From positions 1 to 46,974 of IMG/VR virus record IMGVR_UViG_3300009528_000187: DNA of 46,974 bases; one strand, given 5' to 3'. The notes under the pieces are model-generated. The model was not told the origin of the DNA. It ran no database searches and saw only the letters and a list, made by a program, of their open reading frames with translations. The position numbers were made by a program, and so were the translations under genes. Numbering within the stretch: position 1 is the stretch's first letter; every line of letters begins with the position of its first letter. Positions 1 to 45,578 of the stretch are shown here, in pieces. The stretch is from a virus.

Positions 1-123
1 CTGATGATGATTGCAACTTAAAGCAGATACCGCTATTGAAGAAGATTTGGAAGTGTCCAGTGGGATACAGTAGCCACAATTCGGGCATTTTGCCCACTTC
101 TCTTGCCGTGGCTCTGGGGGCAG
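1..123. repeat. Terminal direct repeat, left copy
   Basis: These 123 bases are identical to the last 123 bases of the window. They lie inside the neuB-like reading frame, which runs on without a break when the ends are joined. This is what a circular or circularly permuted molecule gives when linearised by an assembler. True phage terminal repeats rarely interrupt a gene this way. The unique circle is 46,851 bp. Confidence 0.95.
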
Positions 124-257
124 AGGCGATTGAAGTCCACATCACGCTTGATAGAACAAGTTATGGCACAGACCAACCAGCCTCATTTGAAAAGAGGGGG
201 TTGGAATTAGTAGTTAGAGATGCTAGAAATGTAAGGAGGATAATATGCCGTGGGTAA
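3..257 (+). CDS. neuB: Sialic acid synthase family protein (NeuB/SpsE), 3' part
   Basis: Continuation of the gene that begins at 46332; this segment encodes residues 175-258 and ends at TAA 255-257. It carries GYSSHNSG (about 195-202) and EVHITLDR (218-225). These hold the two histidines that, in characterised NeuB proteins, bind the metal ion. The usual SDHT and EKHFTLD motifs are altered to SSHN and EVHITLD, but both histidines are kept. After the barrel only about 30 residues remain, so the SAF domain is absent. The next small gene starts inside its end. Confidence 0.88.
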   Translation, partial: DDDCNLKQIPLLKKIWKCPVGYSSHNSGILPTSLAVALGAEAIEVHITLDRTSYGTDQPASFEKRGLELVVRDARNVRRIICRG

Positions 258-379
258 ATGCTGACATCACGAATCTTTTTATGGTATTGGATAAAATACT
301 AGCACGATTGGAAAGTATTGATAAGAAGCAAGGTAATGCTAAGCGGACTAAGCGTTCTAAACCTAGAACTGACGAGTAA
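245..379 (+). CDS. Small basic hypothetical protein (44 aa)
   Basis: ATG at 245 is preceded by AAGGAGGA with good spacing, a better ribosome site than most neighbours have. It overlaps the neuB end by 13 nt and the following radical-SAM start. The product has a hydrophobic N-terminal half and a Lys/Arg-rich tail (KRTKRSKPR). No family recognised. The strong ribosome site and overlaps argue it is translated. Confidence 0.5.
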   Translation: MPWVNADITNLFMVLDKILARLESIDKKQGNAKRTKRSKPRTDE

Positions 380-1121
380 ATGCAACAAACGATGTTGGAT
401 GTGTGGGAGACGCAAGATAGAGCGAGACTATCCGCATCTGGCTAACTGGGGGGATATGGATTATGAAATGGCTCAGCGGGTATCTAGTCAGACACCGAGT
501 GGAGTGGTGGTTCAGTTTCACGATAATGGAGAACCTTTGCTCTACCCTCGACTTGGGGAAGCACTTTCTCTATTTAGCAATCAGATTAGGTGCTTGGACA
601 CTAACGGTAAATTGCTCATTGACAAGGCAGAAGAAATCATAGGCAATCTTGATACTATCACCATATCCACCTTTGAGGGGGATGGTGAAGCCGATGAGCA
701 ATGTGAAACTCTGGTAAGGTTTTTAGAAATAAAGGGCGATAGAAAGCCAAGAGTAATAGTGAGGTGCTTGGGAGAAGTTGAATTGGGCAGATATAGGGAG
801 TTGGATTGTCTTATTGCTACTCGTGTTCTTCATAATCCTATGGGTAGTTTTGGTTATAAAAGGAGGACAACGGTTCCTGAAATAGGTATCTGCCTTGATG
901 CCCTATCTCATTTGGTAATTAAAAGAGATGGCAAAGTATCAATGTGCGTCAGGTTTGACCCTGAAGGGCTGGGTATCATTGGAGACGCAACCACAGCGTC
1001 CTTGGGCGAAATCTGGCGTGGTAAACAGCGAAGGCAATGGTTGGGCTATCATATAGAGGGCAGGAGGGATTTAATACCTCTTTGCAGTAGGTGTGAGTTT
1101 TGGGGAGTGCCCGTGGGGTGA
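336..1121 (+). CDS. Radical SAM protein with SPASM-like C-terminus
   Basis: About 261 residues. The CxxxCxxC cluster motif CNKRCWMC sits near residues 16-23 and would bind the 4Fe-4S cluster that cleaves S-adenosylmethionine. The C-terminal part has spaced cysteines (CLD, CVRFDPEG, CSRCEF) like the auxiliary-cluster SPASM/twitch region, with the GIIGD and SLGEIWRG pattern common in that family. ATG 336 is preferred to an upstream TTG at 318. First of three radical-SAM genes in the sugar island. By context it may modify a sugar, but SPASM proteins also act on peptides, so the substrate is open. Confidence 0.82.
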   Translation: MLSGLSVLNLELTSKCNKRCWMCGRRKIERDYPHLANWGDMDYEMAQRVSSQTPSGVVVQFHDNGEPLLYPRLGEALSLFSNQIRCLDTNGKLLIDKAEEIIGNLDTITISTFEGDGEADEQCETLVRFLEIKGDRKPRVIVRCLGEVELGRYRELDCLIATRVLHNPMGSFGYKRRTTVPEIGICLDALSHLVIKRDGKVSMCVRFDPEGLGIIGDATTASLGEIWRGKQRRQWLGYHIEGRRDLIPLCSRCEFWGVPVG

Positions 1122-1129
1122 TAATTGAT

Positions 1130-1291
1130 ATGGCTAAACTTTTGGTGGAAATAGACTTTGCCAAAAGTATGAGTGAGGCTAAGCGCCTAATAAAACAGGG
1201 TGCTGTCGGGATTGATGGGAAAAGAGTGGGGAGATTTGTTTGGTATGAACCTGAAGGAGAAGGCACAAGAATTAAGAAAAACGGTGCTTGA
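1130..1291 (+). CDS. S4-domain-like small protein
   Basis: 53 residues. The segment MSEAKRLIKQGAVGIDGKRV closely resembles the S4 RNA-binding core (alpha-L motif) at the end of tyrosyl-tRNA synthetases and in ribosomal protein S4. No catalytic domain accompanies it. It lies between a radical-SAM gene and a transketolase subunit and overlaps the latter by 47 nt. ATG 1130 is chosen because the S4 motif follows at once. It may be an RNA-binding regulator or a relic of a larger protein; the role is unknown. Confidence 0.65.
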   Translation: MAKLLVEIDFAKSMSEAKRLIKQGAVGIDGKRVGRFVWYEPEGEGTRIKKNGA

Positions 1292-2003
1292 GATGTGCAT
1301 CAAGGCTGGCACGGGGCATCTTACCTCCTGCTTTTCCTGTGTGGAGATAATGGTTGCGTTATTCTACGAGATTATGAAGCCAGAAGATATATTCATTTTA
1401 AGCAAGGGGCACGCCAGCCCTCTATTATACGCCATACTCGCTGATAAGGGATTAATTGACAAGGAGGAGCTATGGAAATTCGCATCAAAGGGTGGGTTGT
1501 TGGGTGTTCACTTAGACCACAATATCACCTCGGCAAGGGTGACGGCTGGTTCTTTGGGACATGGATTGGGCATATCAATCGGCCTTGCATTAAGCAAAAG
1601 ACTAAACAGCGAAAGCGGGATGATTTATTGTTTACTGGGTGATGGCGAATGCTATGAGGGTTCTGTGTGGGAAGCGGCTATGTTTGCAGGGCAAGAGGGG
1701 TTGGATAACTTGACAGCTATCGTGGATTATAACGGCTTAATGGTAACTGAGGTGGTGGATTTAGAATCCCTTAACGCTAAGTGGGAAGCATTTAACTGGA
1801 GTTGCGAACTTGTAGATGGACACGATTTGGAAGCTCTCACTGAAGCATTGAGTATGAAGTGGCCTCTTCCCTCTGTTTACATAGCTGAAACTGTCAAGGG
1901 CAAGGGTATCCCCTTTATGGAATATAAACACTTATGGCACGGAGAAGCACCAAAGGGCGAGGATGCAGAAAGGGCTAGGAGGGAACTTGCGGGAAAGTAT
2001 TAA
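1245..2003 (+). CDS. Transketolase, N-terminal (ThDP-binding) subunit
   Basis: About 252 residues equal to the first half of transketolase. Visible landmarks are GHLTSCFSCVEI (near 23-34), SKGHASPLLYA, TAGSLGHGLGIS, and the thiamine-diphosphate motif starting at GDGECYEG and ending at DYNG. The family moves two-carbon ketol units between sugar phosphates. Partner domains are missing here but appear 6 kb downstream at 8037-8918, so the enzyme is a two-gene (split) type. ATG 1245 leaves the usual short lead before LKEKAQELRKTV. It could supply sedoheptulose 7-phosphate or another ketose for the island; that role is inferred. Confidence 0.88.
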   Translation: MNLKEKAQELRKTVLEMCIKAGTGHLTSCFSCVEIMVALFYEIMKPEDIFILSKGHASPLLYAILADKGLIDKEELWKFASKGGLLGVHLDHNITSARVTAGSLGHGLGISIGLALSKRLNSESGMIYCLLGDGECYEGSVWEAAMFAGQEGLDNLTAIVDYNGLMVTEVVDLESLNAKWEAFNWSCELVDGHDLEALTEALSMKWPLPSVYIAETVKGKGIPFMEYKHLWHGEAPKGEDAERARRELAGKY

Positions 2004-2352
2004 AGAGGTAATTAAAACTTGGGGCAGGGAATTAATCATAGTAAATACTGATGAATACTGTGGGAAATTACTTTGTATTGATAAGGGGGGACAAAGCTCA
2101 TATCACTATCACCGCAGAAAGAAGGAGACATTCTTCGGGTTGAGTGGGCAGACTCGTCTTACTGTGGAGGGTAGAGAGTATATGCTGAATCCGTTTGCCA
2201 GACCAAAGACGATTAAGCCAGGTCAATTACATATGTTCACGGGGATAACCGATGCAGTGCTAGTAGAAATCAGCACGCCACACGATGATAGCGATGTGGT
2301 GAGGGAAACTGAATCAAGGGAGGGCGATAATGGAATGGTCAAATCAGGCTAG
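1987..2352 (+). CDS. Cupin-fold sugar isomerase-like protein
   Basis: About 121 residues, single cupin domain: WGRELII, then SSYHYHRRKKETFF (metal-binding H-x-H and E), KPGQLHMF (later H) and the tail STPHDDSDVVRE. This pattern matches the small cupins linked to N-acetylneuraminate-synthase and D-lyxose isomerase-like loci. The start is taken as TTG 1987 because AGGAGGG lies 3-4 nt before it; an ATG at 1963 would add eight residues. In other genomes such cupins can be fused to NeuB/SpsE, which fits the unfused NeuB here. Isomerase activity is not proven. Confidence 0.75.
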   Translation: MRESIKEVIKTWGRELIIVNTDEYCGKLLCIDKGGQSSYHYHRRKKETFFGLSGQTRLTVEGREYMLNPFARPKTIKPGQLHMFTGITDAVLVEISTPHDDSDVVRETESREGDNGMVKSG

Positions 2353-3466
2353 ATACAATTCGTTTAACTCATACAAGGGCTTAACCTATTATGAGCATTA
2401 CCAGAAAGTCGTGGACTGGTTCAATAAGAAGAAAGATTCCAGGCTACCCCCACCAATAGAGTGTTCACTAGACCCCACCGCCAAGTGCAACTATAACTGC
2501 TATTACTGCAATTCACAGAGATACCTGCGGCAGGACTTGGGTGCAGTCCCAGCAGGCAGGAAGTTAACCAAGAAGTATATGCGGACACTCATTGACTTTC
2601 TGGCAAAGTGGGGAGTGCGTGGTGTCTGCTTGGGTGGTGGTGGTGATTCGCTACTCAGTCAGGATGCGTGGGACTTGCCGTCTTATATCGCCTCTAAGGG
2701 AATGGAATCCTCTGTGGTTACTAATGGCTCAATGTTTAACCCCCACATTATCAGGCAACTGCTCTACTGTCGCTGGGTGGGCTTCTCGGTGGATGCTGGT
2801 GATGCAGAGACTTTCTATAAGGTTCACGGGGTTGACCTGTTTGATAAGGTAATCACGAATATCAGGGCATTGGTGGAAGCCGACATTAAGGAGGGTGGCA
2901 AGCTGGACATAGCCTATAAGGTTCTGGTATTGCCAGAGAACATAGACAGCCTGTATGATGCCTGCAAGTTAGCCAAGAAGATAGGCGTTAAGGATTTCCA
3001 CATCAGACCTGTGGACTTGGAGAGAAAAGACTACCGAATGGCACAGAAGCTCAACCTGGATATACCCAAGATACAGGAGATATTTGCCAAGTGCCACGAG
3101 TTAGAAAACCCATACTTCAGGGTGTTTACTGTGATGCACAAATACGATGAGGAATTCCACGTCAAGCACGATTTTGAACGCTGTTTAGCCTCTCCGTTGG
3201 TTATCCAGTGTTGCACTGATGGGTTGTGTTATGTCTGCGTTGACCACAGGATAGAGGAACGCTTCAAGTTAGGACGACACGAATATAAAGTCGGCAGGAA
3301 ACTAAAGCCTGAAAAGATACTGGATTGGTGGGGTAGTGATGCACACAGGGAACTGCTAAAGAGTATTAAGCCCAGCGAGGAATGCTCCAGATGCACCTGG
3401 TCGGAATACAATCGCCAGATAGAGGATACAGTAATGGAAGATGGATTATGTAGGAGTTTCCCTTGA
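2330..3466 (+). CDS. Radical SAM protein with SPASM-like tail
   Basis: 378 residues. CNYNCYYC near residues 53-60 is the CxxxCxxC cluster site; GGGGDSLL and SSVVTNGS follow as expected for the SAM-binding barrel. The C-terminal third has clustered cysteines (QCCTDGLCYVC, CSRCTW), the sign of auxiliary Fe-S binding. GGAGGG precedes ATG 2330, which lies inside the end of the cupin gene. Second radical-SAM enzyme of the island. Its reaction (epimerisation, dehydration or other) cannot be read from the sequence. Confidence 0.85.
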   Translation: MEWSNQARYNSFNSYKGLTYYEHYQKVVDWFNKKKDSRLPPPIECSLDPTAKCNYNCYYCNSQRYLRQDLGAVPAGRKLTKKYMRTLIDFLAKWGVRGVCLGGGGDSLLSQDAWDLPSYIASKGMESSVVTNGSMFNPHIIRQLLYCRWVGFSVDAGDAETFYKVHGVDLFDKVITNIRALVEADIKEGGKLDIAYKVLVLPENIDSLYDACKLAKKIGVKDFHIRPVDLERKDYRMAQKLNLDIPKIQEIFAKCHELENPYFRVFTVMHKYDEEFHVKHDFERCLASPLVIQCCTDGLCYVCVDHRIEERFKLGRHEYKVGRKLKPEKILDWWGSDAHRELLKSIKPSEECSRCTWSEYNRQIEDTVMEDGLCRSFP

Positions 3467-4431
3467 TTATCAGTAAGACTCCATTTAGAATTAGCTTCTT
3501 CGGTGGTGGCACAGACTATCCCGTGTGGTTTCAGGAACACGGTGGGGCTGTGCTAGGAACAACTATTGATAAATACTGCTACATAATGGCTCGCTACTTA
3601 CCACCGAATTTCAAGGATAAGTATCGGATTGTTCACGCTGCCGAGGAATTCGTTAATACTCTTGAGGAGATACGGCATCCTGCTATCAGGGCTTGCATTA
3701 ACTTTATGGAGATTGATAGGGGGTTGGAGATAATTCACTGGGCTGATATGCCCGCTAGAAAGGGAATGGGAACTAGCTCTGCCTTTGTGGTGGGCTTACT
3801 GAACGCACTCAAGGGTGGGTATGGTAGTAGTCTAGAACTGGCGCAGAATGCCATTGAGGTAGAACAGCGAATACTCAAGGAGAATGTAGGTTGCCAAGAC
3901 CAGTATCTCTCTGCCCTCGGTGGCTTCTCACACCTCGTTTTTGAAAGGAACGGTAAAATTCACAACATTTTCAAAGGCACGGATGATAGATGCTTGGCTA
4001 AATACCTGATGCTATTTGATACTGGCACTTATAGAATTGCCTCGGAGATAGCCGCCGAGCAAATAAGGGTAACGCCGTGGAAGCAAGATGAATTAATGAC
4101 AATGCAGAAGATGGTCTATGAGGCACTGGAAATTCTTGAGAGTGGGGATATATTGGATTTCGGGTTATTGTTGGGGGAAAGCTGGAAATTCAAGCGTAGC
4201 CTCACCAGTAAAATATCCACCCCAAGAATAGATTCCATTTATAAGATTGGCTGTAAGGCTGGTGCTATTGGGGGTAAATTGCTTGGTGCTGGTGGTGGGG
4301 GCTATATGCTTTTCTTTGTAGAACCTGACAAACAGCACAAAGTGAGGTTGGCACTAGCTGATTTACTTTATGTGCCATTCAAGTTTGAGACTCGTGGAAG
4401 TGAGATAATATATGGACTTTGTGATAGTTAA
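3463..4431 (+). CDS. GHMP-family sugar kinase, HddA-like
   Basis: 322 residues with the three GHMP motifs in order: N-terminal PFRISFFGGGTDYP, the phosphate loop PARKGMGTSSAFVVG (near 101-115) and the C-terminal GAGGGGYMLFF. The N-terminal motif and length match D-glycero-D-manno-heptose 7-phosphate kinase and related sugar-phosphate kinases. Start is TTG 3463 with AGGAG 7 nt upstream, overlapping the previous stop (TTGA). With transketolase and the nucleotidyltransferase at 13654 it could form a heptose-like branch. GmhA and GmhB homologues were not seen, so this is only suggestive. Confidence 0.83.
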   Translation: MIISKTPFRISFFGGGTDYPVWFQEHGGAVLGTTIDKYCYIMARYLPPNFKDKYRIVHAAEEFVNTLEEIRHPAIRACINFMEIDRGLEIIHWADMPARKGMGTSSAFVVGLLNALKGGYGSSLELAQNAIEVEQRILKENVGCQDQYLSALGGFSHLVFERNGKIHNIFKGTDDRCLAKYLMLFDTGTYRIASEIAAEQIRVTPWKQDELMTMQKMVYEALEILESGDILDFGLLLGESWKFKRSLTSKISTPRIDSIYKIGCKAGAIGGKLLGAGGGGYMLFFVEPDKQHKVRLALADLLYVPFKFETRGSEIIYGLCDS

Positions 4432-5713
4432 CCCCAGCTTGCCAAACCCAATGGGTGAATTTGCTGCTATTGAGCCGCCAATCTGGTGTGTTATTAATGC
4501 GGGGGTAACACAGCGAGAAGGCAAGTCTGCGGTTATTATTGACGCTGATTTAGAACAACTCACACCCCAGCAGACCGCCCAGAGAATATTAAAACATAAA
4601 CCCAGAGTAACGCTACTATTGGCTATGGGGGCAAACCCCTCTGCATCATCCACCCCCAAGATGGATGCAATCATAGAGATAAGCCACTTGCTGAAGGGTA
4701 AGACAGCGATAGGCATTGGGGGCTTACACGCTGTGGCACTGCCTACTACCACATTAAGGCAGTGTGATGCGGACTTCATTATCACTGCACCGCTTATGCA
4801 AAGCCTGATAGATTTACCCTCGGCAAGTTGGGGCTTATTACCGATGAACAAATACAGGGCACACAACTGGCACTGCCTGGATGGTTCGGATAGGGGGCAT
4901 TATGGTGTGATATATACCAGCTATGGTTGCCCCTTTAATTGCTCTTACTGCAATGTGCATACTATATATGGTGGTAAGGCGATGGTAAAATACCGCAAAC
5001 CACAAGATGTAGTGGATGAGATAGGGCTTCTGGTGAAGAAGTATAGTGTCAGAAACCTCAAGTTTGCCGATGAGTTATTCACTATTAGAGAAGATAGGAT
5101 ACAGCAGTTGTGCGATTTGCTAATCAAACAAAAGTATAATCTTAATATCTGGGCTTACGCTAGGGCGGAGATGGTCAATCCTTGGATGCTGAAGAAGATG
5201 AAGAAGGCAGGGATTAACTGGCTCTGCTACGGCTTTGAGTCTGCCAGTGCCGATGTATTAGAGGGAGTGTCTAAGGGAGACCAATATGGGATGATGAAGC
5301 AGGCAGTTCAGATGACACACGATGCAGGGATTAATATTATTGGCAATTTTATCTTCGGCTTGCCAGAGGATAACCTTGATACAATGAGAGACACTCTTTC
5401 TATGGCAAAGGAATTTAACTGCGAGTATGTCAATTTCTATGTGGCTATGGCATATCCTGGCTCTAAACTATATATGGACGCACTTCAGAGTGGCGTTAAG
5501 CTACCTGAGAAATGGGCGGACTACGGGCAGTTCTCCCCCAATGTCTTACCCCTGCCAACCAAGTATCTCTCGGCAGAAGAGGTATTAAGCTTCAGGGATA
5601 TGGCCTTTCAGGATTACTTCAACGATAAAGTCTATCAAGATTTAATTGGTAGGAAATTCGGAGATAAGGCAGTTAAGCATATTAAGAAGATGCTGGGGGT
5701 AAAGATAAGATGA
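4412..5713 (+). CDS. B12-binding-domain radical SAM protein
   Basis: 433 residues. The first about 150 look like a Rossmann cobalamin-binding domain (VNPSLPNPMGEFAAIEPP, IGIGGLHAVALP), though the DxHxxG B12 base-off motif is not clearly present. The radical-SAM domain follows with YGCPFNCSYCNV (CxxxCxxC, near 170), FADELF, GFESAS, and NFIFGLPEDN. This architecture is that of the BchE-like/class B methyltransferase group. The ATG lies 20 nt inside the kinase gene. Third radical-SAM gene in the island; a C-methylation or ring modification of the sugar is possible but not shown. Confidence 0.82.
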   Translation: MDFVIVNPSLPNPMGEFAAIEPPIWCVINAGVTQREGKSAVIIDADLEQLTPQQTAQRILKHKPRVTLLLAMGANPSASSTPKMDAIIEISHLLKGKTAIGIGGLHAVALPTTTLRQCDADFIITAPLMQSLIDLPSASWGLLPMNKYRAHNWHCLDGSDRGHYGVIYTSYGCPFNCSYCNVHTIYGGKAMVKYRKPQDVVDEIGLLVKKYSVRNLKFADELFTIREDRIQQLCDLLIKQKYNLNIWAYARAEMVNPWMLKKMKKAGINWLCYGFESASADVLEGVSKGDQYGMMKQAVQMTHDAGINIIGNFIFGLPEDNLDTMRDTLSMAKEFNCEYVNFYVAMAYPGSKLYMDALQSGVKLPEKWADYGQFSPNVLPLPTKYLSAEEVLSFRDMAFQDYFNDKVYQDLIGRKFGDKAVKHIKKMLGVKIR

Positions 5714-5949
5714 AAGAATGGCGACCTGACGATTGGGAAGATGCTCACAGTGCTGGTTATGAGTCTAGAAATAGAAAGGAATGTTATGGTGATTGTGCTT
5801 TCTGTGCCTATGAAGCTGGTGCTGATACGATGCTGAAGGCACTAAGGGACAAGGGTGTCTTTACTTATGGTAATCATACTCCTGATATAGAGTTGTGCGA
5901 TGCTCCACAAGTAAGCGGATATTGGTGCTTTATACCAGAGGGGGAATAG
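5710..5949 (+). CDS. Small cysteine-containing hypothetical protein
   Basis: 79 residues, joined to the radical-SAM gene by an ATGA overlap. CYGDCAFCAYEAG gives three cysteines in CxxxCxxC spacing, the same spacing as a radical-SAM cluster but in a protein too small for that fold. The rest shows no recognised domain. It may bind metal or serve as a partner of the upstream enzyme; both ideas are guesses. Confidence 0.6.
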   Translation: MKEWRPDDWEDAHSAGYESRNRKECYGDCAFCAYEAGADTMLKALRDKGVFTYGNHTPDIELCDAPQVSGYWCFIPEGE

Positions 5950-5951
5950 CT

Positions 5952-6905
5952 CTGAATAAGCGAGTGGTATATCTCAACGGTGAGTTCGTTCCTGAAAAAG
6001 AAGCCAGAATATCAATTTATGATTCAGCATTGATGTTTGGCGATATGGTGTTTGAGATGACTCGCTCTTTTAATGGAGTGCAATTCAAGTTAAGGGAACA
6101 TCTTCTGCGATTAAAGGATTCTACGAGAGCATTGCATATTCCGTTACAAATGACTATAGGGGATACAGAGAGCACCATTGAGGAACTCTTGAAACGCAAC
6201 GGGGGATACTTTGATAAAGATGATGAAATTCGCCTGCTAATCAATGTATCTCGTGGGCCACTATCAATATATGGTGAGGTCTTTGATGGCAAATTAGAAC
6301 CAACGATAGTTATCTCTGCCTTCCCCTTGAAGTGGGTTCTCGGCCCGTTGGCTCACTTATATCACACAGGGGTTCACGCTATCATACCAAGCCAGCGAGC
6401 TATACCAGCACATCTATTAGACCCCAAGATTAAATCCCGCAGTAGACTCCACCTGATGATGGCTAATCTGGAGATAGCACGATACAATGACGACAGGGCG
6501 TGGGCTTTACTATTAGACCCAGATGGCTATGTAACAGAGGGAACGGGGGCTAACTTCTTTATAGTTAGAGACGGCAATCTAATCACACCCAAGCCCCACA
6601 ATATTCTAAGAGGAATAAGCAGGGAATATGTTATGAAAGAGCTTGCACTAGAACCTGTATTTCAAAAGAATATTGAGCCGTATTATATCGCCACAGCAGA
6701 CGAGGCGTTCTTTACCGCCACACCATTCTGTATAATGCCAGTTACCAAGTTTAACGGGATGGATATAGGGGATGGCAAGGTTGGGTATTTTACGCAATTA
6801 CTATTAAATGGATGGGGTGAGAAGGTGGGCGTAGATATAGTAGCTCAAGCCGATAATTGGTCTAAAGACATAAAGGGGGCAACGCCATACAGTATAAGGG
6901 GGTAA
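5952..6905 (+). CDS. PLP-dependent class IV aminotransferase (IlvE/D-amino acid type)
   Basis: About 317 residues. VYLNGEFVPEKEARISIYDSALMFGD is split across the usual N-terminal motif; the PLP-lysine region is LDPKIKSRSRLHLMMANLE, and EGTGANFFIV is the phosphate-binding signature. The family transfers amino groups from amino acids to keto acids. No ATG fits the N-terminus: GAGGGGG sits 8 nt before CTG 5952, and GTG 5964 is the alternative. In the island it may supply an amino group or a D-amino acid for sugar decoration. The family is firm, the substrate unknown. Confidence 0.85.
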   Translation: MNKRVVYLNGEFVPEKEARISIYDSALMFGDMVFEMTRSFNGVQFKLREHLLRLKDSTRALHIPLQMTIGDTESTIEELLKRNGGYFDKDDEIRLLINVSRGPLSIYGEVFDGKLEPTIVISAFPLKWVLGPLAHLYHTGVHAIIPSQRAIPAHLLDPKIKSRSRLHLMMANLEIARYNDDRAWALLLDPDGYVTEGTGANFFIVRDGNLITPKPHNILRGISREYVMKELALEPVFQKNIEPYYIATADEAFFTATPFCIMPVTKFNGMDIGDGKVGYFTQLLLNGWGEKVGVDIVAQADNWSKDIKGATPYSIRG

Positions 6906-6908
6906 ATT

Positions 6909-7088
6909 ATGATTAAACAAGGGGAAATAGACAAACTGGATAAGCAATGGTGGGGAGTTGTTGAACACGGTGGTTTTCTAGGAGCTATGCTCTTGTTGGC
7001 TAGGTACCCCTTACCGCCAAAGGTGGTTTTCCACCAAATAGAAATGAATCGGGTAATGAGTGGGTTGGTATATCGTGGTCACCGATGA
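6909..7088 (+). CDS. Hypothetical protein (59 aa)
   Basis: ATG 6909 follows the aminotransferase stop by 3 nt, and its TGA overlaps the next ATG (ATGA), so it sits tightly in the operon. It has a short hydrophobic stretch (GFLGAMLLLARYPLP), not clearly membrane-spanning. No family recognised. Confidence 0.55.
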   Translation: MIKQGEIDKLDKQWWGVVEHGGFLGAMLLLARYPLPPKVVFHQIEMNRVMSGLVYRGHR

Positions 7089-7318
7089 ATAAGACAATAG
7101 CTATTCAATATCTTAAAAGCTTGCCACGAAGTTGGTTGCCATCGAGTAGAGAGGGTGGGAAGTGTGGTGAGCCGAGCAATAGCGAGTTAAGAAGATGGTT
7201 AAGGAAGGGCTCGATAAGGATTAATGGGGCTAATCCGAAGCCTAACGGTGAAATAACCTTCCCAATTACGGAATTAATATTCTTCTTTAGGGGTAATCAG
7301 GTAACAATAATAGAATGA
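7085..7318 (+). CDS. Possible S4-like RNA-binding small protein
   Basis: 77 residues. The segment SNSELRRWLRKGSIRINGANP resembles the helix-turn and loop of an S4 domain (ELRRWLxxGxIxING), followed by a beta-rich tail. The resemblance is weaker than for the protein at 1130. It is translationally coupled to both neighbours by ATGA overlaps. Two S4-like proteins within 6 kb of a sugar island is unusual. Confidence 0.5.
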   Translation: MNKTIAIQYLKSLPRSWLPSSREGGKCGEPSNSELRRWLRKGSIRINGANPKPNGEITFPITELIFFFRGNQVTIIE

Positions 7319-8040
7319 ATAAAACAATAGCCATAGTTCAAGCCAGAATGGGGTCGACTAGACTACCCTGCAAGAGCTTGGCATTGGTCTGGAAGAATAT
7401 GACCTTGTTGGAGATGGTCTTGCGTAGAACGATGCAGGCAAGGACATTAGGCCGTGTGATACTAGCGACTACTATGAGGGCAGAAGACGATTGCCTTGTG
7501 CGATTAGCTGATACCTGCGACATTGGTGTGTTCAGGGGCAGTGAGAATAATGTCCTAAAGAGGTTTAATGATGCTCTCTATGCCTTTCCTGCTGATGCGG
7601 TAGTGAGGGTTTGTGCTGACAACCCCCTAATAGACCCGCAGATGATTGATAAGCTAGTGGAGTTCTATTGGAAATATCGTTGGGATTATATCACGAGCGT
7701 TCCGCCTGCGACAGGTCTCCCCGATGGTGTGGGGGCAGAGATATTCTCGACCACCGCTCTACGGCGGGCAGTAATGAAAACTACGGATAAAGGCTACCTT
7801 GAAAATGTAACCACTTATTTCCAGGCAAGCCGTGAATACAGTGTTGCTTATTTGGGGGCGGGAAAGGGATACCATAGACCAAATTACAGACTAGACATTG
7901 ACTACCCTGAAGACCTGACATTTATTCAGACTCTATTGAAGCACTTGCCCCCAGAGAATGCACCCTACTGGACAACAAAAGAAGTAATAGAGACATTAGA
8001 TAAAGAGCCAGAATTATTAAAACTAAGGAAGGAAAGATGA
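7315..8040 (+). CDS. SpsF-type cytidylyltransferase
   Basis: 241 residues. The start IVQARMGSTRLPCKSL is the nucleotide-binding signature of the SpsF/KdsB/NeuA cytidylyltransferase group, and RVCADNPLIDPQMID is the second motif. These enzymes activate acidic sugars with CTP to CMP-sugars, or act in spore-coat polysaccharide synthesis (SpsF). Together with NeuB/SpsE it gives the two core steps for making and activating a nonulosonic acid. The usual GKSL is CKSL here, a substitution in the loop. Coupled to both neighbours by ATGA overlaps. Confidence 0.87.
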   Translation: MNKTIAIVQARMGSTRLPCKSLALVWKNMTLLEMVLRRTMQARTLGRVILATTMRAEDDCLVRLADTCDIGVFRGSENNVLKRFNDALYAFPADAVVRVCADNPLIDPQMIDKLVEFYWKYRWDYITSVPPATGLPDGVGAEIFSTTALRRAVMKTTDKGYLENVTTYFQASREYSVAYLGAGKGYHRPNYRLDIDYPEDLTFIQTLLKHLPPENAPYWTTKEVIETLDKEPELLKLRKER

Positions 8041-8918
8041 TTAGCCAACGAGATGCCTTCTTTAATAAACTATATGAACTAGCTCAAAAAGATAAGGACA
8101 TCATTATCGTTACTGCTGATTGTGGTACACCAAGCCTTGACCAGTGGCGTGATAACCTACCAGACCAGTTTATCAATGTGGGCATCGCTGAACAGAATAT
8201 GATTTCTATTGCTGCTGGCTTGGCACTGGCGGGGAAGAAACCCTACTGCTATGCTATAATCCCCTTTCTAACCCTGAGATGCCTAGACCAGATTAAGTGT
8301 GATATATGCCTTATGAATCTACCAGTAACCCTTGTGGGTATAGGTGCTGGGTTGGGCTATAACGATTCTGGGCCAACCCACCACGCCACAGAAGACATAG
8401 CCATTATGAGAGTTTTGCCTAATATGCAGATAGCGAGTCCTTCCAACGCAGATAATGCAGAACTTTTAGCACGCCTGTATAATAAGCCCACTTACATCAG
8501 GCTTGATAGACATACACCCGCCAATCCCCCCAGCATTACCGCCGTATATGATGACTCCCACCAGATGTTTTACCCACTCTGGTTAAAACCCTTTACCTTG
8601 CCCAAGGAGGTGCTTGATGCCAAACTTCTCATCACCCTAGAGGAACACCTGCTTGCTGGGGGCTTGGGTAGCATAGTGGCTGAATATCTAGTAGACAATA
8701 ACATTAGAATTCCGTTAAAGCGTATCGGCATTAAAGATGAATACTTCTACAAATATGGTAAGAGAGAGGATATATGGAATGGTGAAGCTGAACTTCAGCG
8801 AATACTTGCCGAATACAGAGAAAAGAATAGACTACCTGAAGAATATTATCGGGGGCAGACCAGTAGCGATACTTCTACCAGGCCCAAGCATCGGCGAGCT
8901 AGAGCAAAGAATAAATGA
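8037..8918 (+). CDS. Transketolase, C-terminal subunit
   Basis: 293 residues. GIAEQNMISIAAGLALAGKKP carries the glutamate that in transketolases and DXP synthase activates thiamine diphosphate; DSGPTHHATEDIAIMRVLPNM and the phosphate-loop region YIRLDRHTP follow. It completes the enzyme whose ThDP half is at 1245-2003. Separate N and C subunits are known in many bacteria and archaea, but usually adjacent; here about 6 kb lie between. The last about 45 residues overlap the next gene in another frame and look poorly constrained (TSSDTSTRPKHRRARAKNK). Confidence 0.86.
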   Translation: MISQRDAFFNKLYELAQKDKDIIIVTADCGTPSLDQWRDNLPDQFINVGIAEQNMISIAAGLALAGKKPYCYAIIPFLTLRCLDQIKCDICLMNLPVTLVGIGAGLGYNDSGPTHHATEDIAIMRVLPNMQIASPSNADNAELLARLYNKPTYIRLDRHTPANPPSITAVYDDSHQMFYPLWLKPFTLPKEVLDAKLLITLEEHLLAGGLGSIVAEYLVDNNIRIPLKRIGIKDEYFYKYGKREDIWNGEAELQRILAEYREKNRLPEEYYRGQTSSDTSTRPKHRRARAKNK

Positions 8919-9543
8919 ACTGGCGAACTGCGATATATGCTATGCCTCCCTCAATGATTTCTGGTTCATTGAAGAACGCATACACAAAGTTCAAATAGTC
9001 CAATCCAGTGCTCCGGATAACCTCGTGCCCACCGAGAAGGATATGGAGTTCCTTGCCCGCCCTGACGATAACCTCTTTATCAGTGAAGAGGTATCCTTCC
9101 ACCATAGCTTGGATACAGTGCTTGAGAACTACAACCAAAAACTCCTGTTCGTTGTTTCGGACAATAGGGGCATATATCCTCGGCAGGTATGGTTTGCACC
9201 CACCCCGCAACAACCCCTCCACTTTCTAGCACTATCGTCTTTCTTCACGCTTACTATGGTTTGCTTGATTGGAGGCGCTTCTATGATTGTTCTCTTCGGC
9301 TGTGATGGGGGCAAGATAGAAAAACAGCCCTTATACTGGGGTGGCAAAGACAACCCCTCTTGGGGCAGGCTTTTGTATGATACGGCTATTCTAAACCAAC
9401 TTGCACAACCCATATTAACACAAGTGTATGCCCTGTATGGTATTGAGCCCAAGAGAATTATCAACTGCTCCCTACAAAGTCATCACACCAGCTTTGAAAA
9501 ACTATCTTATGATGAAACCTTTAAGGTATTAAATGAAAACTAA
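8779..9543 (+). CDS. DUF115/Maf-like protein (possible nonulosonic acid transferase)
   Basis: About 254 residues. GRPVAILLPGPSIGELE at about 26-42 matches the opening of the DUF115 (MAF_flag10/MptE-like) domain, and ASMIVLFGCDGG matches its later G-x-D motif. In flagellated bacteria Maf proteins of this family attach pseudaminic or legionaminic acid to flagellin; other members are pterin pyrophosphokinases. With NeuB and SpsF nearby, a transferase role is attractive but not proven. ATG 8779 overlaps the transketolase gene by 140 nt; an ATG at 8737 is also possible. Confidence 0.65.
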   Translation: MVKLNFSEYLPNTEKRIDYLKNIIGGRPVAILLPGPSIGELEQRINELANCDICYASLNDFWFIEERIHKVQIVQSSAPDNLVPTEKDMEFLARPDDNLFISEEVSFHHSLDTVLENYNQKLLFVVSDNRGIYPRQVWFAPTPQQPLHFLALSSFFTLTMVCLIGGASMIVLFGCDGGKIEKQPLYWGGKDNPSWGRLLYDTAILNQLAQPILTQVYALYGIEPKRIINCSLQSHHTSFEKLSYDETFKVLNEN

Positions 9544-10288
9544 TCTTATATGGGGAAACTCTGGCGATACTGAAACCTCCCTGTGGCATACTGTGGTTGA
9601 CTTACTGCAAAGCCACGAGAGCCAGAATGGATTATTAAAGATAAAACCAGCCAATAAAAACCAGACTGGCTTACTTGACCCAGAATTCAAACAGGAATTG
9701 GCTTGGGCTAATATGGCACTTGAGTGCGACTATTTGAGTTGGAGGCAGGGCAAGGCACTGAGGAAGTTGATGAGACCAAAGGCGTTTATCACACCCGCAG
9801 ATATAAGGGCATTAATTGCCCTTGCTGTGACAGTGGGGAGAGCGGGAATGTTTATGGCAGATATAGGCACTTGGATGGGTGCGTCAGCACTAGCGTTGGC
9901 AACCGTAGCGTTCTTTAATGATGGCAAGGTTTTCTGCGTGGATACGCACAACTGGTGGGGTGATGCCATCTTCACTATGTTTAGACACATAATGAGGCGA
10001 AGGGAACTGTGGGCTAATGTCATATCCCCAGTGATGATGAGCAGTGAGTTGGCTATTGATATATTTAAGGATGAGAGTTTGGACTTAGCCTTCATTGATG
10101 CTGCCCATTCTTACGAGTATGTCTCTATAGACATACCTGGCTGGCTACCCAAAGTTAGAAAGGGTGGGATACTCTGCGGACACGATGCTGATGAAGAACA
10201 CCAAGATGTATTGAAAGTGCTTCACGAGACTTTTGGCGATGACTACCTGGTAATACCTGATACCTCAATATGGTATAAGAAACTATGA
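9533..10288 (+). CDS. Class I SAM-dependent methyltransferase
   Basis: 251 residues. Motif I is ADIGTWMGASALALA (near 108-122), the acidic post-I site is KVFCVDTHNW, and motif IV is LDLAFIDAAHSYEYV, followed by GGILCGHDAD. This is the Methyltransf_24 type often found with glycosyltransferases. The first about 90 residues are distinct from the following paralogue. The ATG overlaps the upstream gene by 11 nt. It likely O- or N-methylates a sugar; the target is unknown. Confidence 0.8.
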   Translation: MKTNLIWGNSGDTETSLWHTVVDLLQSHESQNGLLKIKPANKNQTGLLDPEFKQELAWANMALECDYLSWRQGKALRKLMRPKAFITPADIRALIALAVTVGRAGMFMADIGTWMGASALALATVAFFNDGKVFCVDTHNWWGDAIFTMFRHIMRRRELWANVISPVMMSSELAIDIFKDESLDLAFIDAAHSYEYVSIDIPGWLPKVRKGGILCGHDADEEHQDVLKVLHETFGDDYLVIPDTSIWYKKL

Positions 10289-10953
10289 AAACTGAAAAGA
10301 TAGAAGATGAGAGAGCGTGGAATGAAACTTGGGGGCGTGGCATTGATGCTAATGATGCCAAGGCACTGATTGATTTGACAGACAAAGTTGCCCGCCAGAA
10401 TGTGCTGGTTGCCGAGATTGGTAGCTGGAAGGGATTATCCACCCTCTTTCTTGGCTTACAGGTGCGACCATATAGAGGTAAGGTTTTTGTCATTGACCAC
10501 TGGCGTGGAGACCCTGGCGACCAGGTTATAATAGCCAAGCAACGAGATGTTTTCGGGATATTCAGAAGAAATATGATTATGATGAGTCTTTGGCACACTG
10601 AGGTATTCCCCCTGCTAATGGATTCCCTTACAGCCAGCCAGATATTTGCCGACCACATTCTGGATTTAGTCTTCATTGATGCCGACCACCGCTATGATGC
10701 TGTGAAAGCTGACATAGATAATTGGTTGCCTAAAGTTAAGGTGGGGGGAATTATAAGCGGACACGATTGCCACTGTAAATATACCAACTGTTCCCAGCGA
10801 CAGAAAGAAGAGATTGATGCCAATCTAAACACTAGGAATATTAATCTGGAAATAATAGACTGCCATCCTGGTGTAAGCAGGGCATTGTATGATGCCTTCA
10901 ATGACGAATACTCAATGGCGGATGCCTCTACTGTATGGTATAAGGAACTATGA
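10285..10953 (+). CDS. Class I SAM-dependent methyltransferase, paralogue
   Basis: 222 residues, clearly related to the preceding protein: AEIGSWKGLSTLFLG, KVFVIDHWRGDPGDQ, LDLVFIDADHRYDAV, GGIISGHDCH and a shared C-terminal WYKxL. Tandem duplication with divergence is the likely origin. Joined by an ATGA overlap. The pair may methylate different positions of one glycan. Confidence 0.8.
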   Translation: MKTEKIEDERAWNETWGRGIDANDAKALIDLTDKVARQNVLVAEIGSWKGLSTLFLGLQVRPYRGKVFVIDHWRGDPGDQVIIAKQRDVFGIFRRNMIMMSLWHTEVFPLLMDSLTASQIFADHILDLVFIDADHRYDAVKADIDNWLPKVKVGGIISGHDCHCKYTNCSQRQKEEIDANLNTRNINLEIIDCHPGVSRALYDAFNDEYSMADASTVWYKEL

Positions 10954-12047
10954 AAAAAACAGCCCTTGTTACCACTACTATTAGAATACCTGAAATGTTA
11001 AAGGGGTTCTGGGATAATGCGAACCTTTATCAGCACGACAATATTGAGGCGATAGTTATCGGGGATAAGAAGACGCCTTGCAAAGCCTCGGAGTTCTGTG
11101 CCTCATTACCGCATACCAGATTCCTTACCATAGAAGCACAGGAGAAGGCATTAAAGGATTACCCCGAACTATTGAAAACCATCCCGTATAATTGTGGTGA
11201 CAGGAAGTTACTGGGTATGCTCATCGCTTATCTGGGGGGCTTTGATACTATTATCGCAATAGATGATGATAACTTTGTTACCACGCAAGACTACTTTAGA
11301 TTCCACAAGATGGTGGGCGAGTGGGAAATACTGCCCGTGGTTGAGAACGACAGCGGTTGGTTTAACGCAATCCATTTTGCCATAGAGGAGGGGGAATACA
11401 TACCTTATCATCGGGGATTTCCCCACTCAAAAAGGAAGACCAGTAATTACACCGTGAGGCAGGCTGGAGCAAAAGTGGTTGTTAATGAGGGCTTCTGGCA
11501 GGGCGACCCAGACATTGACGCGACAACACGGCTTTGCTTTACTTTATTTGAAGCCCCCCTCAATGACATTAAGCCGTGCCTCAAGTTTGTCCCACACTTT
11601 GGGCTTCAGCCAGGAACCTGGTGCACCTTCAATAATCAGAATACCGCCTTTGCCCGTGAGGTTATACCAGCCTACTTCACGCCGCCCTGCGCCAAGCGCT
11701 ACTCCGACCTCTGGCCTGCTATGGTTGTCTGCTGTATTGCTGGACATCTGAACCATATAATATCCTACGGCTATCCCATAGTTGAACACAGGCGTAATGA
11801 ACACTCGCTCTGGAAGGATGTGCAGGATGAGAAGGTGGGGGCTAGGGCTACCGAACCTTTGATTGAAATGTTGCGCTCTGCTAAATTCACTGGTGATAAT
11901 TACCACACTTGCCTTGGTGAATTACTAGAACATTTAGAGACACAATCGGATATTATAGGGCAACTTCCCGATGACCAGGGGGATATGTTATTTGGTTTTA
12001 TCAGTGGGATGCAAGTATGGCATCGGGTATTTTCGGGTATGATATAA
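10950..12047 (+). CDS. Reversibly-glycosylated-polypeptide-like glycosyltransferase
   Basis: 365 residues. IIAIDDDNFV is the DDDN-type metal/nucleotide-sugar site, and GFPHSKR, GFWQGDPDIDATTRL, NNQNTAFAREV and RYSDLWPAMV follow in the order seen in the RGP family (UDP-arabinopyranose mutase/STELLO-like). Members interconvert or transfer nucleotide sugars. Last gene of the contiguous sugar block; its stop codon lies inside the extended -10 promoter at 12040. Family by motif order is good; activity is uncertain. Confidence 0.78.
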   Translation: MKKTALVTTTIRIPEMLKGFWDNANLYQHDNIEAIVIGDKKTPCKASEFCASLPHTRFLTIEAQEKALKDYPELLKTIPYNCGDRKLLGMLIAYLGGFDTIIAIDDDNFVTTQDYFRFHKMVGEWEILPVVENDSGWFNAIHFAIEEGEYIPYHRGFPHSKRKTSNYTVRQAGAKVVVNEGFWQGDPDIDATTRLCFTLFEAPLNDIKPCLKFVPHFGLQPGTWCTFNNQNTAFAREVIPAYFTPPCAKRYSDLWPAMVVCCIAGHLNHIISYGYPIVEHRRNEHSLWKDVQDEKVGARATEPLIEMLRSAKFTGDNYHTCLGELLEHLETQSDIIGQLPDDQGDMLFGFISGMQVWHRVFSGMI

Positions 12048-13379: not shown

Positions 13380-13672
13380 TGAGTGAGGTCGTTCTTCGCA
13401 AGAAAGACGAAAGATACGAGATACACGACTTGCACTTGGGTGATTTGACCCTGTCGGTAACTTACTTGAACGCAGGACAGAACACGATAGGGCATCTTCA
13501 CTCACAGGAGGAGGGATACTATATTGCCAGTGGGTTGGGTAGGATGATGGTAAACGACAGGATAACGCAAGTAAGTGGGGGTCAATTTATGGTCGTGCCC
13601 CCAAACACTTATCATCGTATCTTTAATGACGGCTTGTTGTCGTTGGTGTTCATATGTGCGTGGGAAAAATAA
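13379..13672 (+). CDS. Small cupin protein
   Basis: 97 residues, one cupin: IGHLHSQEEGYYIASGLG (metal ligands H, H and E), then VPPNTYHRI (second-motif H). This is the mannose-6-phosphate isomerase/cupin_2 type that often works on sugars. It is fused by overlap to the nucleotidyltransferase gene, so the two may act in the same pathway. It is embedded among virion genes although its job is metabolic. Confidence 0.75.
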   Translation: MSEVVLRKKDERYEIHDLHLGDLTLSVTYLNAGQNTIGHLHSQEEGYYIASGLGRMMVNDRITQVSGGQFMVVPPNTYHRIFNDGLLSLVFICAWEK

Positions 13673-14070
13673 TAGCGGTGGGAGGGGGATTTGACCCCTT
13701 GCATATCGGGCACATAAGGCACTTACAAGAAGCCAGAAAGCTAGGAACTTGGTTGGTGGTATTGGTGAGTAATGATGAGGATATGATACGCAAGAAGGGT
13801 TACTGCTTTATGCCACTAGAGGAGAGGATGGAGATATTAAGAGAACTAAGGTGTGTGGATGAAGTCTGGGAAACTTGGGACAAGGATGGCACACAAGCTG
13901 AAACCTTGCGGGCAATCTGCCCCGATGTATATGCCAAGGGTGGTGATAGGACACCAGACAATATGCCTGTTAATGAAATAGAAGCCTGTGCTGAAATAGG
14001 CTGTGAGATAGTTTATGGAGTAGGAGAAAAAATACAGTCCAGTTCTGAATTAGTGAGGAAAATTAAATGA
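13654..14070 (+). CDS. HxGH-type nucleotidyltransferase (RfaE/TagD-like)
   Basis: 138 residues. GGGFDPLHIGHIRHL holds the HxGH site of the cytidylyltransferase-like superfamily; KGGDRTPDN and QSSSELV match the adenylyltransferase half of HldE (RfaE) and glycerol-3-phosphate cytidylyltransferases. It would activate a sugar or polyol phosphate with CTP or ATP. With the kinase at 3463 it could complete a heptose-like activation route. The gene overlaps both neighbours. Confidence 0.8.
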   Translation: MCVGKIIAVGGGFDPLHIGHIRHLQEARKLGTWLVVLVSNDEDMIRKKGYCFMPLEERMEILRELRCVDEVWETWDKDGTQAETLRAICPDVYAKGGDRTPDNMPVNEIEACAEIGCEIVYGVGEKIQSSSELVRKIK

Positions 14071-42842: not shown

Positions 42843-43694
42843 ATGGCAATAAGTGCGAAACTTATGACCAATGTCAATGTCGCAAACTGGATTCCGACAA
42901 TTTGGTCAAAACAGGTGCTTGCAGCCGTTGAACATTCGTTAGTTACTGGTGCGCTGGTTGACCGCTCTTATGAGCAGTATGCTAGGGCAGGCGGGAGTAG
43001 AATTGTTGTGCCTAATCTGGCAAACCTTACTGCTGCTGCTGTTAATACTGACCAGGATTTAACCCTTTATGGAGCAACCCAGGGTGCTACCAACATTGAT
43101 GTAAACTACTTCTTCGATGTTGGCGTGGGTCTATCTGACATAGAGGACTTACAGATTAACCCTGACTATATGGAGAAGGTGAAGGGCAAAGTAGCCTATT
43201 CATTGGCACAGGTGATTGACTGGAACACTAACGCATTGTTCGCTGGCTTTGATACTGCTGTAGGCACTACTGGTTCGGCTCTTACTGAGGACGACCTGAT
43301 TGAAGCTTACGAGAACCTGAACGAGGCAGATGCGCCCTTTACTGACAGGGCGTGGGTCTTTGACCCAGAATCCATTACTGACCTACTGAAACAGGACTAC
43401 TTCATCAGAATGGATTATGTCCCTGGTAGCGTGGTTTCACAGGGTTTCCAAGGCAGGCAAATCTTTGGTTCGCCAGTATACATTTCCACGAACCTGACTG
43501 TTTACGGCTCAACCAATGAGCATATGTCGGGATATTTCCAGAGAGAGGCGATTGCGTTGGTGATGCAGATGCAACCCAAGTTTGAGGTTGCCCGTCTACC
43601 GCTACAGCATTCTGATGCTATCATCGGTTTGTGTGCGTATGGCTTGATGGAAATGCGGGGCACCTTCGGAGTCCTGATTAACTGTAGAAGCTAG
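42843..43694 (+). CDS. Major capsid protein
   Basis: 283 residues. IPTIWSKQVLAAVEHSLVTGALVD, split here by length rule, and GGSRIVVPNL, DVGVGLSDIEDLQ, and AWVFDPESITDLLKQDYF match the P22/N4-gp56-like group of HK97-fold coat proteins. It follows the scaffold gene and would form the shell. The leader 42779-42842 includes a GAGC/GCTC hairpin. Confidence 0.8.
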   Translation: MAISAKLMTNVNVANWIPTIWSKQVLAAVEHSLVTGALVDRSYEQYARAGGSRIVVPNLANLTAAAVNTDQDLTLYGATQGATNIDVNYFFDVGVGLSDIEDLQINPDYMEKVKGKVAYSLAQVIDWNTNALFAGFDTAVGTTGSALTEDDLIEAYENLNEADAPFTDRAWVFDPESITDLLKQDYFIRMDYVPGSVVSQGFQGRQIFGSPVYISTNLTVYGSTNEHMSGYFQREAIALVMQMQPKFEVARLPLQHSDAIIGLCAYGLMEMRGTFGVLINCRS

Positions 43695-45236: not shown

Positions 45237-45578
45237 ATGGATACCAGCGAAACTTATATCAAGATGTGTGATTGTGGAGAAATACAAAATATATGGAATC
45301 CTGAAGGTTTGGATTTTACACATCGCAGACTAGGCAAGCAGTATAAACACGGAACTATGCTTTGGCTCCCACGCCAAGACCAGTTGCAGGAAATGGTAGG
45401 AATAACACGGACTAGACTCATAACTGAGTTTGGCACATTTGCAGTTTGCCACGAGGTCAGGGGTGTTCTAGCACTTAACTATTATCGCTCAATGGAGCAA
45501 CTCTGGCTTGCCTTTGTGATGAAAGAGAAACACGATAAAGTGTGGGATGGTGAATCGTGGATGAAAAAGAGCAAGTAG
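45237..45578 (+). CDS. Hypothetical protein (113 aa)
   Basis: GAGGGAG lies before ATG 45237. KMCDCGEIQNIW gives a short Cys motif; the rest (RRLGKQYKHGTMLWLPRQDQ, ALNYYRSMEQLW) is unrecognised. It overlaps the following glycosyltransferase by 22 nt. Confidence 0.55.
   Translation: MDTSETYIKMCDCGEIQNIWNPEGLDFTHRRLGKQYKHGTMLWLPRQDQLQEMVGITRTRLITEFGTFAVCHEVRGVLALNYYRSMEQLWLAFVMKEKHDKVWDGESWMKKSK

Follow-up and report, generated by a model that had tools for sequence, protein, structure and literature searches.

The genome and its radical SAM genes

The stretch of DNA analysed here, referred to as the window, is the whole of the IMG/VR virus record IMGVR_UViG_3300009528_000187 (46,974 bp), in which three genes coding for radical S-adenosylmethionine (rSAM) proteins lie close together. 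They are named rSAM1, rSAM2 and B12-rSAM, the last one for its probable B12-binding domain. An exact direct repeat of 123 bp is found at both ends of the record, which indicates a closed genome of 46,851 bp and, since the genome closes, makes one gene of the two NeuB halves present at the record ends (46332-46974 plus 3-257). Matches of a head protein and a terminase to PHROGs identify a tailed phage, while the same collection gave no name for the rSAM1 family nor for most structural proteins.

A previous sequence-only reading of the window had reported three proteins with a CxxxCxxC motif in one phage locus. All three have Pfam support, and a scan of the whole record found exactly three rSAM genes. 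Their supposed rarity in phages depends on the collection: 50,697 annotated phage records contain hardly any relatives (one for rSAM1, three for rSAM2 and none for B12-rSAM), but they are not rare in IMG/VR, with 19 loci for rSAM1 and 135 matching stretches for B12-rSAM. All three genes sit among sugar genes, in line with the sugar chemistry suggested by that reading; these are described below as two sets, modules A and B (Table 1), and their membership of sugar pathways can be stated with high confidence.

Table 1. Position of the sugar cassette genes, their borders and the end repeat in the window
Feature	Position	Strand	Evidence
Direct end repeat	1-123, identical to 46852-46974	.	Exact match
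Module A: NeuB, C-terminal part	3-257	+	PF03102 3.2e-21 on the part alone
Module A: rSAM1, twitch radical SAM protein, proposed alcohol dehydrogenase	336-1121	+	Pfam, alignment, AlphaFold, Foldseek, alternation with a short-chain dehydrogenase
Thiamine-diphosphate (ThDP) enzyme, transketolase N-type subunit (N-terminal), probably starting near 1245	1200-2003	+	PF00456 7.8e-26
Module B: cupin, sugar-isomerase-like (SIS protein instead in L300)	1963-2352	+	PF07883 2.4e-7
Module B: rSAM2, twitch-type radical SAM protein	2330-3466	+	Radical_SAM 9.2e-18; four Cys; locus comparison
Module B: GHMP kinase, nearest D-glycero-D-manno-heptose 7-phosphate kinase	3463-4431	+	NF049969 1.7e-34, 119.8 bits vs. 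cut-off 600
Module B: B12-rSAM, B12-binding-domain radical SAM protein	4412-5713	+	Radical_SAM 1.2e-17; locus comparison
Module A: class IV aminotransferase (relatives start near 5952)	5895-6905	+	PF01063 6.7e-44; family alignment
Module A: SpsF-like cytidylyltransferase in NeuA's place (also L070, L202, L206)	7315-8040	+	PF02348 2.8e-24
ThDP enzyme, C-terminal subunit, transketolase pyrimidine + C type	8037-8918	+	PF02779 1.8e-33
Homologue of the N-terminal part of a 628-residue protein with a family 2 glycosyltransferase (GT2) domain beside the rSAM1 relative of L028; possible transferase	8737-9543	+	35% identity; no Pfam match itself
Two Methyltransf_24-type methyltransferase genes (9533-10288 and 10285-10953)	9533-10953	+	PF13578 3.2e-16 and 6.6e-19
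Glycosyltransferase-like (RGP family)	10950-12047	+	PF03214 3.4e-6
Probable module B member: HldE-C-like nucleotidyltransferase	13654-14070	+	TIGR02199 4.9e-23, 81.6 bits vs. cut-off 181.5
Major head protein, left cassette border	42843-43694	+	PHROG 267 1.4e-27; 63% identical to L110
Glycosyltransferase-like + methyltransferase fusion	43742-45229	+	PHROG 1574, 22502, 12406; 58% to L110
GT2-like glycosyltransferase, common to phages with either module	45557-46339	+	35-53% identity in L110, L298, L217, L300, L297, L223
Module A: NeuB family synthase, N-terminal part, no SAF domain	46332-46974	+	Joined reading PF03102 4e-58

Sequence, fold and relatives of rSAM1

The open reading frame (ORF) of rSAM1 spans 318-1121, and the ATG at 336 agrees with the start in its relatives. 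Pfam recognises a SPASM domain (3.6e-10) and, under its cut-off (23.2 vs. 29.5 bits), a Radical_SAM domain (8.5e-5). In an alignment of 19 sequences, the core cysteines C22, C26 and C29 of the CxxxCxxC motif are invariant, as are four others, C192, C210, C256 and C259, with a spacing of C-x17-C-x45-C-x2-C; these four are candidate ligands of an auxiliary cluster, and C210, C256 and C259 fall within the stretch aligned to BtrN. A profile of the 19 sequences matched BtrN in the PDB (1.2e-17), the core and the auxiliary-cluster region each giving a match of its own. The AlphaFold model, whose mean predicted local distance difference test score (pLDDT) is 90.4, likewise retrieved BtrN and SpeY on top with Foldseek (2e-11 and 2.9e-8), these two enzymes occupying ranks 1-4 and 6 with TM-scores of 0.53-0.61. 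BtrN is a twitch enzyme with four cysteine ligands to its auxiliary cluster, and turns an alcohol of an aminocyclitol into a ketone by a two-electron oxidation (review PMC9012708). As for the SPASM-like tails attributed earlier to rSAM1 and rSAM2, the extra cysteines are present, but both proteins look twitch-type, with a single auxiliary cluster. Viperin, also considered for the rSAM proteins, was rejected on NCBIfam scores of 22.6 and 54.3 bits vs. a cut-off of 180, the similarity being confined to the core.

Besides the 19 virus loci, 52 close cellular loci (48-65% identity) contain rSAM1 relatives, mostly in bins of Omnitrophota, Elusimicrobia, Lentisphaerae, deltaproteobacterial and related groups. 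Most of the named host bins presumably belong to lineages known as anaerobes, and an anoxic setting is plausible. Virus and cell copies are interleaved in the rSAM1 tree, with about 12 virus/cell changes, four of them forced by well-supported branches. In L041, L058 and L073, either rSAM1-like genes occur in more than one copy or the cluster contains a second module, and some of these copies sit on very long branches. The interleaving implies that gene traffic is common, and would suit genes carried passively as an island of host origin, on a record that is defective or mis-binned; such an origin is nevertheless very unlikely for a closed genome with exact end repeats, a head protein, a terminase and intact ORFs, whose modules recur in many other virus contigs.

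Partners of rSAM1 in module A

The neighbourhoods of rSAM1 were counted with one locus per contig, the window being one of the 19 virus loci. NeuB is present in 16/19 virus and 47/52 cellular loci, and NeuA-type genes in 14/19 and 46/52, respectively. They are followed by VOC proteins (9/19 and 28/52), class III aminotransferases (8/19 and 25/52) and class IV aminotransferases (4/19 and 12/52). The third function of the module is nearly exclusive, being either a class III aminotransferase with a VOC protein, a class IV aminotransferase or a short-chain dehydrogenase (SDR), and no locus had both aminotransferase classes within six genes of rSAM1. Module A of the window is of the class IV kind, and its cytidylyltransferase is of the type acting on cytidine monophosphate (CMP) sugars (PF02348), SpsF-like and not NeuA. 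No description of this NeuB-rSAM module was found in the open-access literature. The cellular locus L028, from a bin of Candidatus Scalindua, has aminotransferases of both types as well as relatives of many cassette genes of the window: rSAM1, B12-rSAM, transketolase N and C, Methyltransf_24 and the protein at 8737-9543.

The C-terminal SAF domain, which characterises canonical NeuB (sialic acid synthase), is missing from the NeuB of the window and from eight module NeuBs, and was seen only in a second NeuB of L042. Under equivalog cut-offs, the NeuB of L005 falls short of both NeuB (255.8 vs. 399.65 bits) and PseI (189.6 vs. 340.25 bits), that of the window having been scored only as an 84-residue part. 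The scan of the cassette ORFs identified neither a hexosamine epimerase nor a dehydratase, and with these hexosamine steps and the SAF domain missing, a conventional sialic or pseudaminic acid pathway was rejected. With 258 and 236 residues, the NeuBs of the window and of L110 (L110:6467-7177) are shorter than most module NeuBs (median of 285 residues), the latter lacking residues in the mid-barrel, and the activity of both is uncertain.

Alternation of rSAM1 and SDR

Virus modules were also gathered with alignments of the two aminotransferases, and not with rSAM1, retaining those with NeuA or NeuB and removing near copies at 90%. Among these modules, 22 carry rSAM1, 26 carry an SDR, four have neither and none has both (Fisher, 1.1e-10, a value which ignores relatedness). 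The rSAM1/SDR label changes at least four times on the class IV aminotransferase tree and at least three times on the class III tree, indicating that several swaps took place, and in both backgrounds. Most simply, rSAM1 and the SDR would be two ways of oxidising an alcohol to the ketone used by the aminotransferase. This alternation in otherwise equal modules, together with the kinship to BtrN and SpeY, makes dehydrogenation the leading reaction for rSAM1, which is probably a sugar-alcohol dehydrogenase; both lines favour it over the deoxygenation, epimerisation or C-methylation first suggested. The cells sampled via the class IV aminotransferase (237 and 369 genomes) yielded 4 and 1 genomes only, too few for an unbiased exclusion test; in L216, which is among them, the short stretch examined contains a TIM-barrel gene and lacks rSAM1.

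Several points weigh against this assignment, in addition to the relatedness disregarded by the Fisher value. The function of SPASM/twitch enzymes is hard to predict from similarity (PMC6231123), and the rSAM1 model superposes on BtrN with a TM-score of only 0.57-0.61 and a root-mean-square deviation of 5.9 Å. The aminotransferase trees are quick ones, some of whose branches are open. A xylose-isomerase-like TIM-barrel gene usually lies beside the SDR (PF01261 in L185), and the function that is replaced may therefore exceed oxidation. Finally, rSAM1 and SDR do occur together in modules devoid of an aminotransferase (eight cellular and three virus loci), which would fit an oxidation followed by a reduction to the epimer; simple replacement does not account for it, and the two are thus not interchangeable in every module.

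Some radical epimerases act on sugars, and rSAM1 could be one of them (NeoN/AviX12 type), in which case the SDR and TIM-barrel pair would do likewise by oxidation, epimerisation and reduction; the usual position of the TIM-barrel gene fits epimerisation as well as oxidation. This alternative is unlikely, since the nearest solved relatives of rSAM1 are dehydrogenases and the aminotransferase of the module depends on a keto or aldehyde group in its substrate, whereas epimerisation would produce neither. Moreover, in several SDR modules no TIM-barrel gene was detected, though the SDR alone keeps the exclusion. As a dehydrogenase, rSAM1 could still be one half of an epimerisation where the module pairs it with an SDR.

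Module B

Virus scans with single sequences found no relatives of rSAM2 and few of rSAM1 and B12-rSAM, so that alignments were needed. The B12-rSAM alignment was extended with relatives in the Scalindua bin (L028) and a Nanoarchaeota bin (L079), both of which adjoin transketolase-like N and C genes, and the virus scan made with it returned contigs with rSAM2, a GHMP kinase, a cupin and B12-rSAM in a row. As a whole, module B was found, complete or partial, in about nine other virus contigs. L304 has GHMP, rSAM2, cupin and B12-rSAM, whereas L299 and L297 have rSAM2, GHMP, cupin and B12-rSAM with a split E1-type ThDP pair. The pair is followed by rSAM2, HldE-C-like, GHMP and B12-rSAM in L306, and by rSAM2, HldE-C-like and B12-rSAM in L305; L300 has rSAM2, SIS, GHMP, B12-rSAM, and transketolase C and N; L302 has B12-rSAM, transketolase N and C, rSAM2 and also rSAM1; L298 has rSAM2 and B12-rSAM; and L301 has rSAM2 alone. 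Pfam matches support this gene content. HldE-C-like genes lie inside the modules of L223/L306 and L247/L305.

In rSAM2, four cysteines are invariant over six sequences, with the twitch spacing C-x17-C-x48-C-x2-C. Its profile and a weak model (pLDDT of 66) lean to SkfB, BlsE and DesII, the last two of which we take to be sugar-nucleotide enzymes. For the B12 domain proposed earlier in B12-rSAM, there is a B12-binding match (1.7e-6) that falls just under the Pfam cut-off (28.3 vs. 32.1 bits), next to a Radical_SAM score of 65.1 bits, and the profile is nearest to AprD4 (8e-19), then to OxsB, TsrM-type proteins and TokK. With DesII, BlsE and AprD4 as neighbours in sequence and model comparisons, rSAM2 or B12-rSAM might carry out a deoxygenation or C-methylation.

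A B12-rSAM relative, L001:6369-8801, is split by an intein (Pfam Intein_splicing 4.9e-12, HNH endonuclease) inside its CxxxCxxC motif, the one to which the radical SAM cluster binds. In the window, small ORFs precede both halves of the split ThDP enzyme block: an S4-type one (1100-1291; Pfam S4 1.2e-7) for the N half and another (7085-7318; PHROG 28515, unknown function), S4-like by eye, for the C half. Neither had a match among the loci compared.

Small ORFs and peptide maturation

Peptides are frequent substrates of SPASM/twitch proteins, the weak matches include SkfB and SuiB, and a cysteine-containing ORF of 79 residues (5710-5949) lies between B12-rSAM and the aminotransferase, all of which would suit the maturation of ribosomally synthesised and post-translationally modified peptides (RiPPs) or of a virion protein. 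However, this ORF has no family and no match in the loci compared, and none of the small ORFs beside rSAM1 in 71 loci is conserved, the sole cluster having three zinc-ribbon-like members. Pfam reported no RiPP recognition element or PqqD-type domain. The sequence-only reading had itself named peptide maturases with a nearby precursor as the outcome that would contradict a sugar function; what was found instead is that the partners of the rSAM genes are sugar enzymes throughout. Peptide maturation was dropped as no conserved precursor appeared next to rSAM1, in a search covering the rSAM1 loci, and we hold it to be highly improbable.

Position of the cassette among structural genes

On the circle, the cassette starts directly behind the head protein (42843-43694) and extends to about 14070, the point from which homologues of the tail-region genes of another phage contig follow. 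The window genes at 14067 and 18562 have homologues in L219/L297, directly downstream of its module B. L110, whose head protein is 63% identical, carries the class III variant of module A at the equivalent place, and module A genes lie near terminase or portal genes in L008 and L020 and near a weak head-protein match in L223. The glycosyltransferase at 45557-46339, 53% identical to that of L110, was assigned from its sequence and has no PHROG match.

That sugar modules are exchanged at a single site within the structural genes suggests that they decorate the virion, and the location of the genes (window, L110, L219, L008, L020 and L223) would also suit late expression. A change of the host surface polysaccharide, by lysogenic conversion or superinfection exclusion, is nearly as likely, with a chance falling somewhat short of even. 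In cells, module A is located within surface-polysaccharide loci that also contain LIC12162-type and BFO_1060-type transferases, and clusters with rSAM cassettes in marine SAR11 phages have been interpreted as modifying the host O-chain (PMC7029224).

Comparison with known systems

BtrN (butirosin) and SpeY (spectinomycin) consist of a core and one auxiliary-cluster domain with four cysteines, a layout that rSAM1 appears to share, and they are its best sequence and fold matches; the butirosin pathway also includes an aminotransferase, as module A does (PMC9012708 and its reference 29). Unlike them, rSAM1 is phage-borne, its partners are NeuB and a cytidylyltransferase and not aminocyclitol enzymes, and identity is about 19% over the fold alignment.

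Concerning module A, the flagellin modification genes sfmABCDE of Shewanella likewise combine a short NeuB-type protein (SfmA, 290 residues) with an SDR (the PtmA-like SfmC) and a thiamine pyrophosphate enzyme (SfmB). SfmA is experimentally required, and the sfm genes make a nonulosonic-acid-like flagellin sugar (PMC3765264). This operon, compared by description, has neither rSAM nor aminotransferase and targets flagellin. The CMP-nonulosonate pathways (sialic, legionaminic and pseudaminic acid) share the core of NeuB and a NeuA/PseF-type enzyme, whereas module A has no SAF domain, stays under the NeuB/PseI equivalog cut-offs (L005) and has an extra rSAM/aminotransferase step.

For module B, the nearest known system is the nucleoside diphosphate (NDP)-heptose pathway (GmhA, HddA, HldE/HddC), with which it shares an isomerase-like cupin (SIS in L300), an HddA-like kinase and an HldE-C-like nucleotidyltransferase; all of these are under the curated cut-offs, and that pathway has nothing equivalent to rSAM2, B12-rSAM or the split ThDP enzyme. 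As regards phages, rSAM genes in a variable region of sugar genes have already been reported in the host-recognition clusters of pelagimyophages (PMC7029224), the available part of which gives no module structure, partner set or reaction; the hosts also differ.

Proposed pathways and their meaning

From the gene content, the conserved modules, the rSAM1/SDR alternation and the nearest solved relatives, we infer the following reactions, order of steps and target. In module A, NeuB would couple phosphoenolpyruvate to an aldehyde sugar, the product being CMP-activated by the cytidylyltransferase and receiving an amino group from the aminotransferase. rSAM1 would provide the ketone for this transamination by a BtrN-type reaction, in which the 5'-deoxyadenosyl radical would abstract a hydrogen from the alcohol-bearing carbon and the single auxiliary [4Fe-4S] cluster would accept the second electron. 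In module B, the cupin or SIS isomerase, the GHMP kinase and the HldE-C-like enzyme may yield a nucleotide-activated, heptose-like sugar, further modified by rSAM2, B12-rSAM and the ThDP enzyme. Glycosyltransferases of the same block would then place the sugars on the virion or host surface.

The best explanation is thus a pair of sugar pathways carried by the phage among its structural genes, with the three rSAM enzymes as members; taken as a whole, with the reactions and target set out above, it has about an even chance of being correct. A heptose-like product of module B, proposed by analogy, seems evenly balanced as well. The most specific version is tentative, with the chances rather against it: module A would be an undescribed pathway to a CMP-activated amino-ulosonate, common to phages, anaerobic bacteria and some archaea, with an rSAM dehydrogenase and an NAD-type (nicotinamide adenine dinucleotide) SDR as exchangeable forms of a single step; module B would be a second undescribed pathway, leading to a branched or deoxygenated heptose by means of two radical enzymes and a ThDP enzyme; and both would decorate the virion. 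The account is weakened by the module B genes that interrupt module A in the window, where joint action of the latter is deduced from other loci, by the weak rSAM2 model, and by heptose-enzyme scores under the curated cut-offs, which make "NDP-heptose-like" an analogy.

The exchange of rSAM1 and SDR provides a rare outside check on the function of a twitch enzyme. While rSAM genes in phages are usually left as "radical SAM protein", the present analysis results in testable enzymes for radical sugar chemistry. If the proposed pathways are right, phages would exchange entire sugar modules at a single location within their structural genes, and unknown amino sugars are predicted on phage particles or on the surfaces of uncultured anaerobes.

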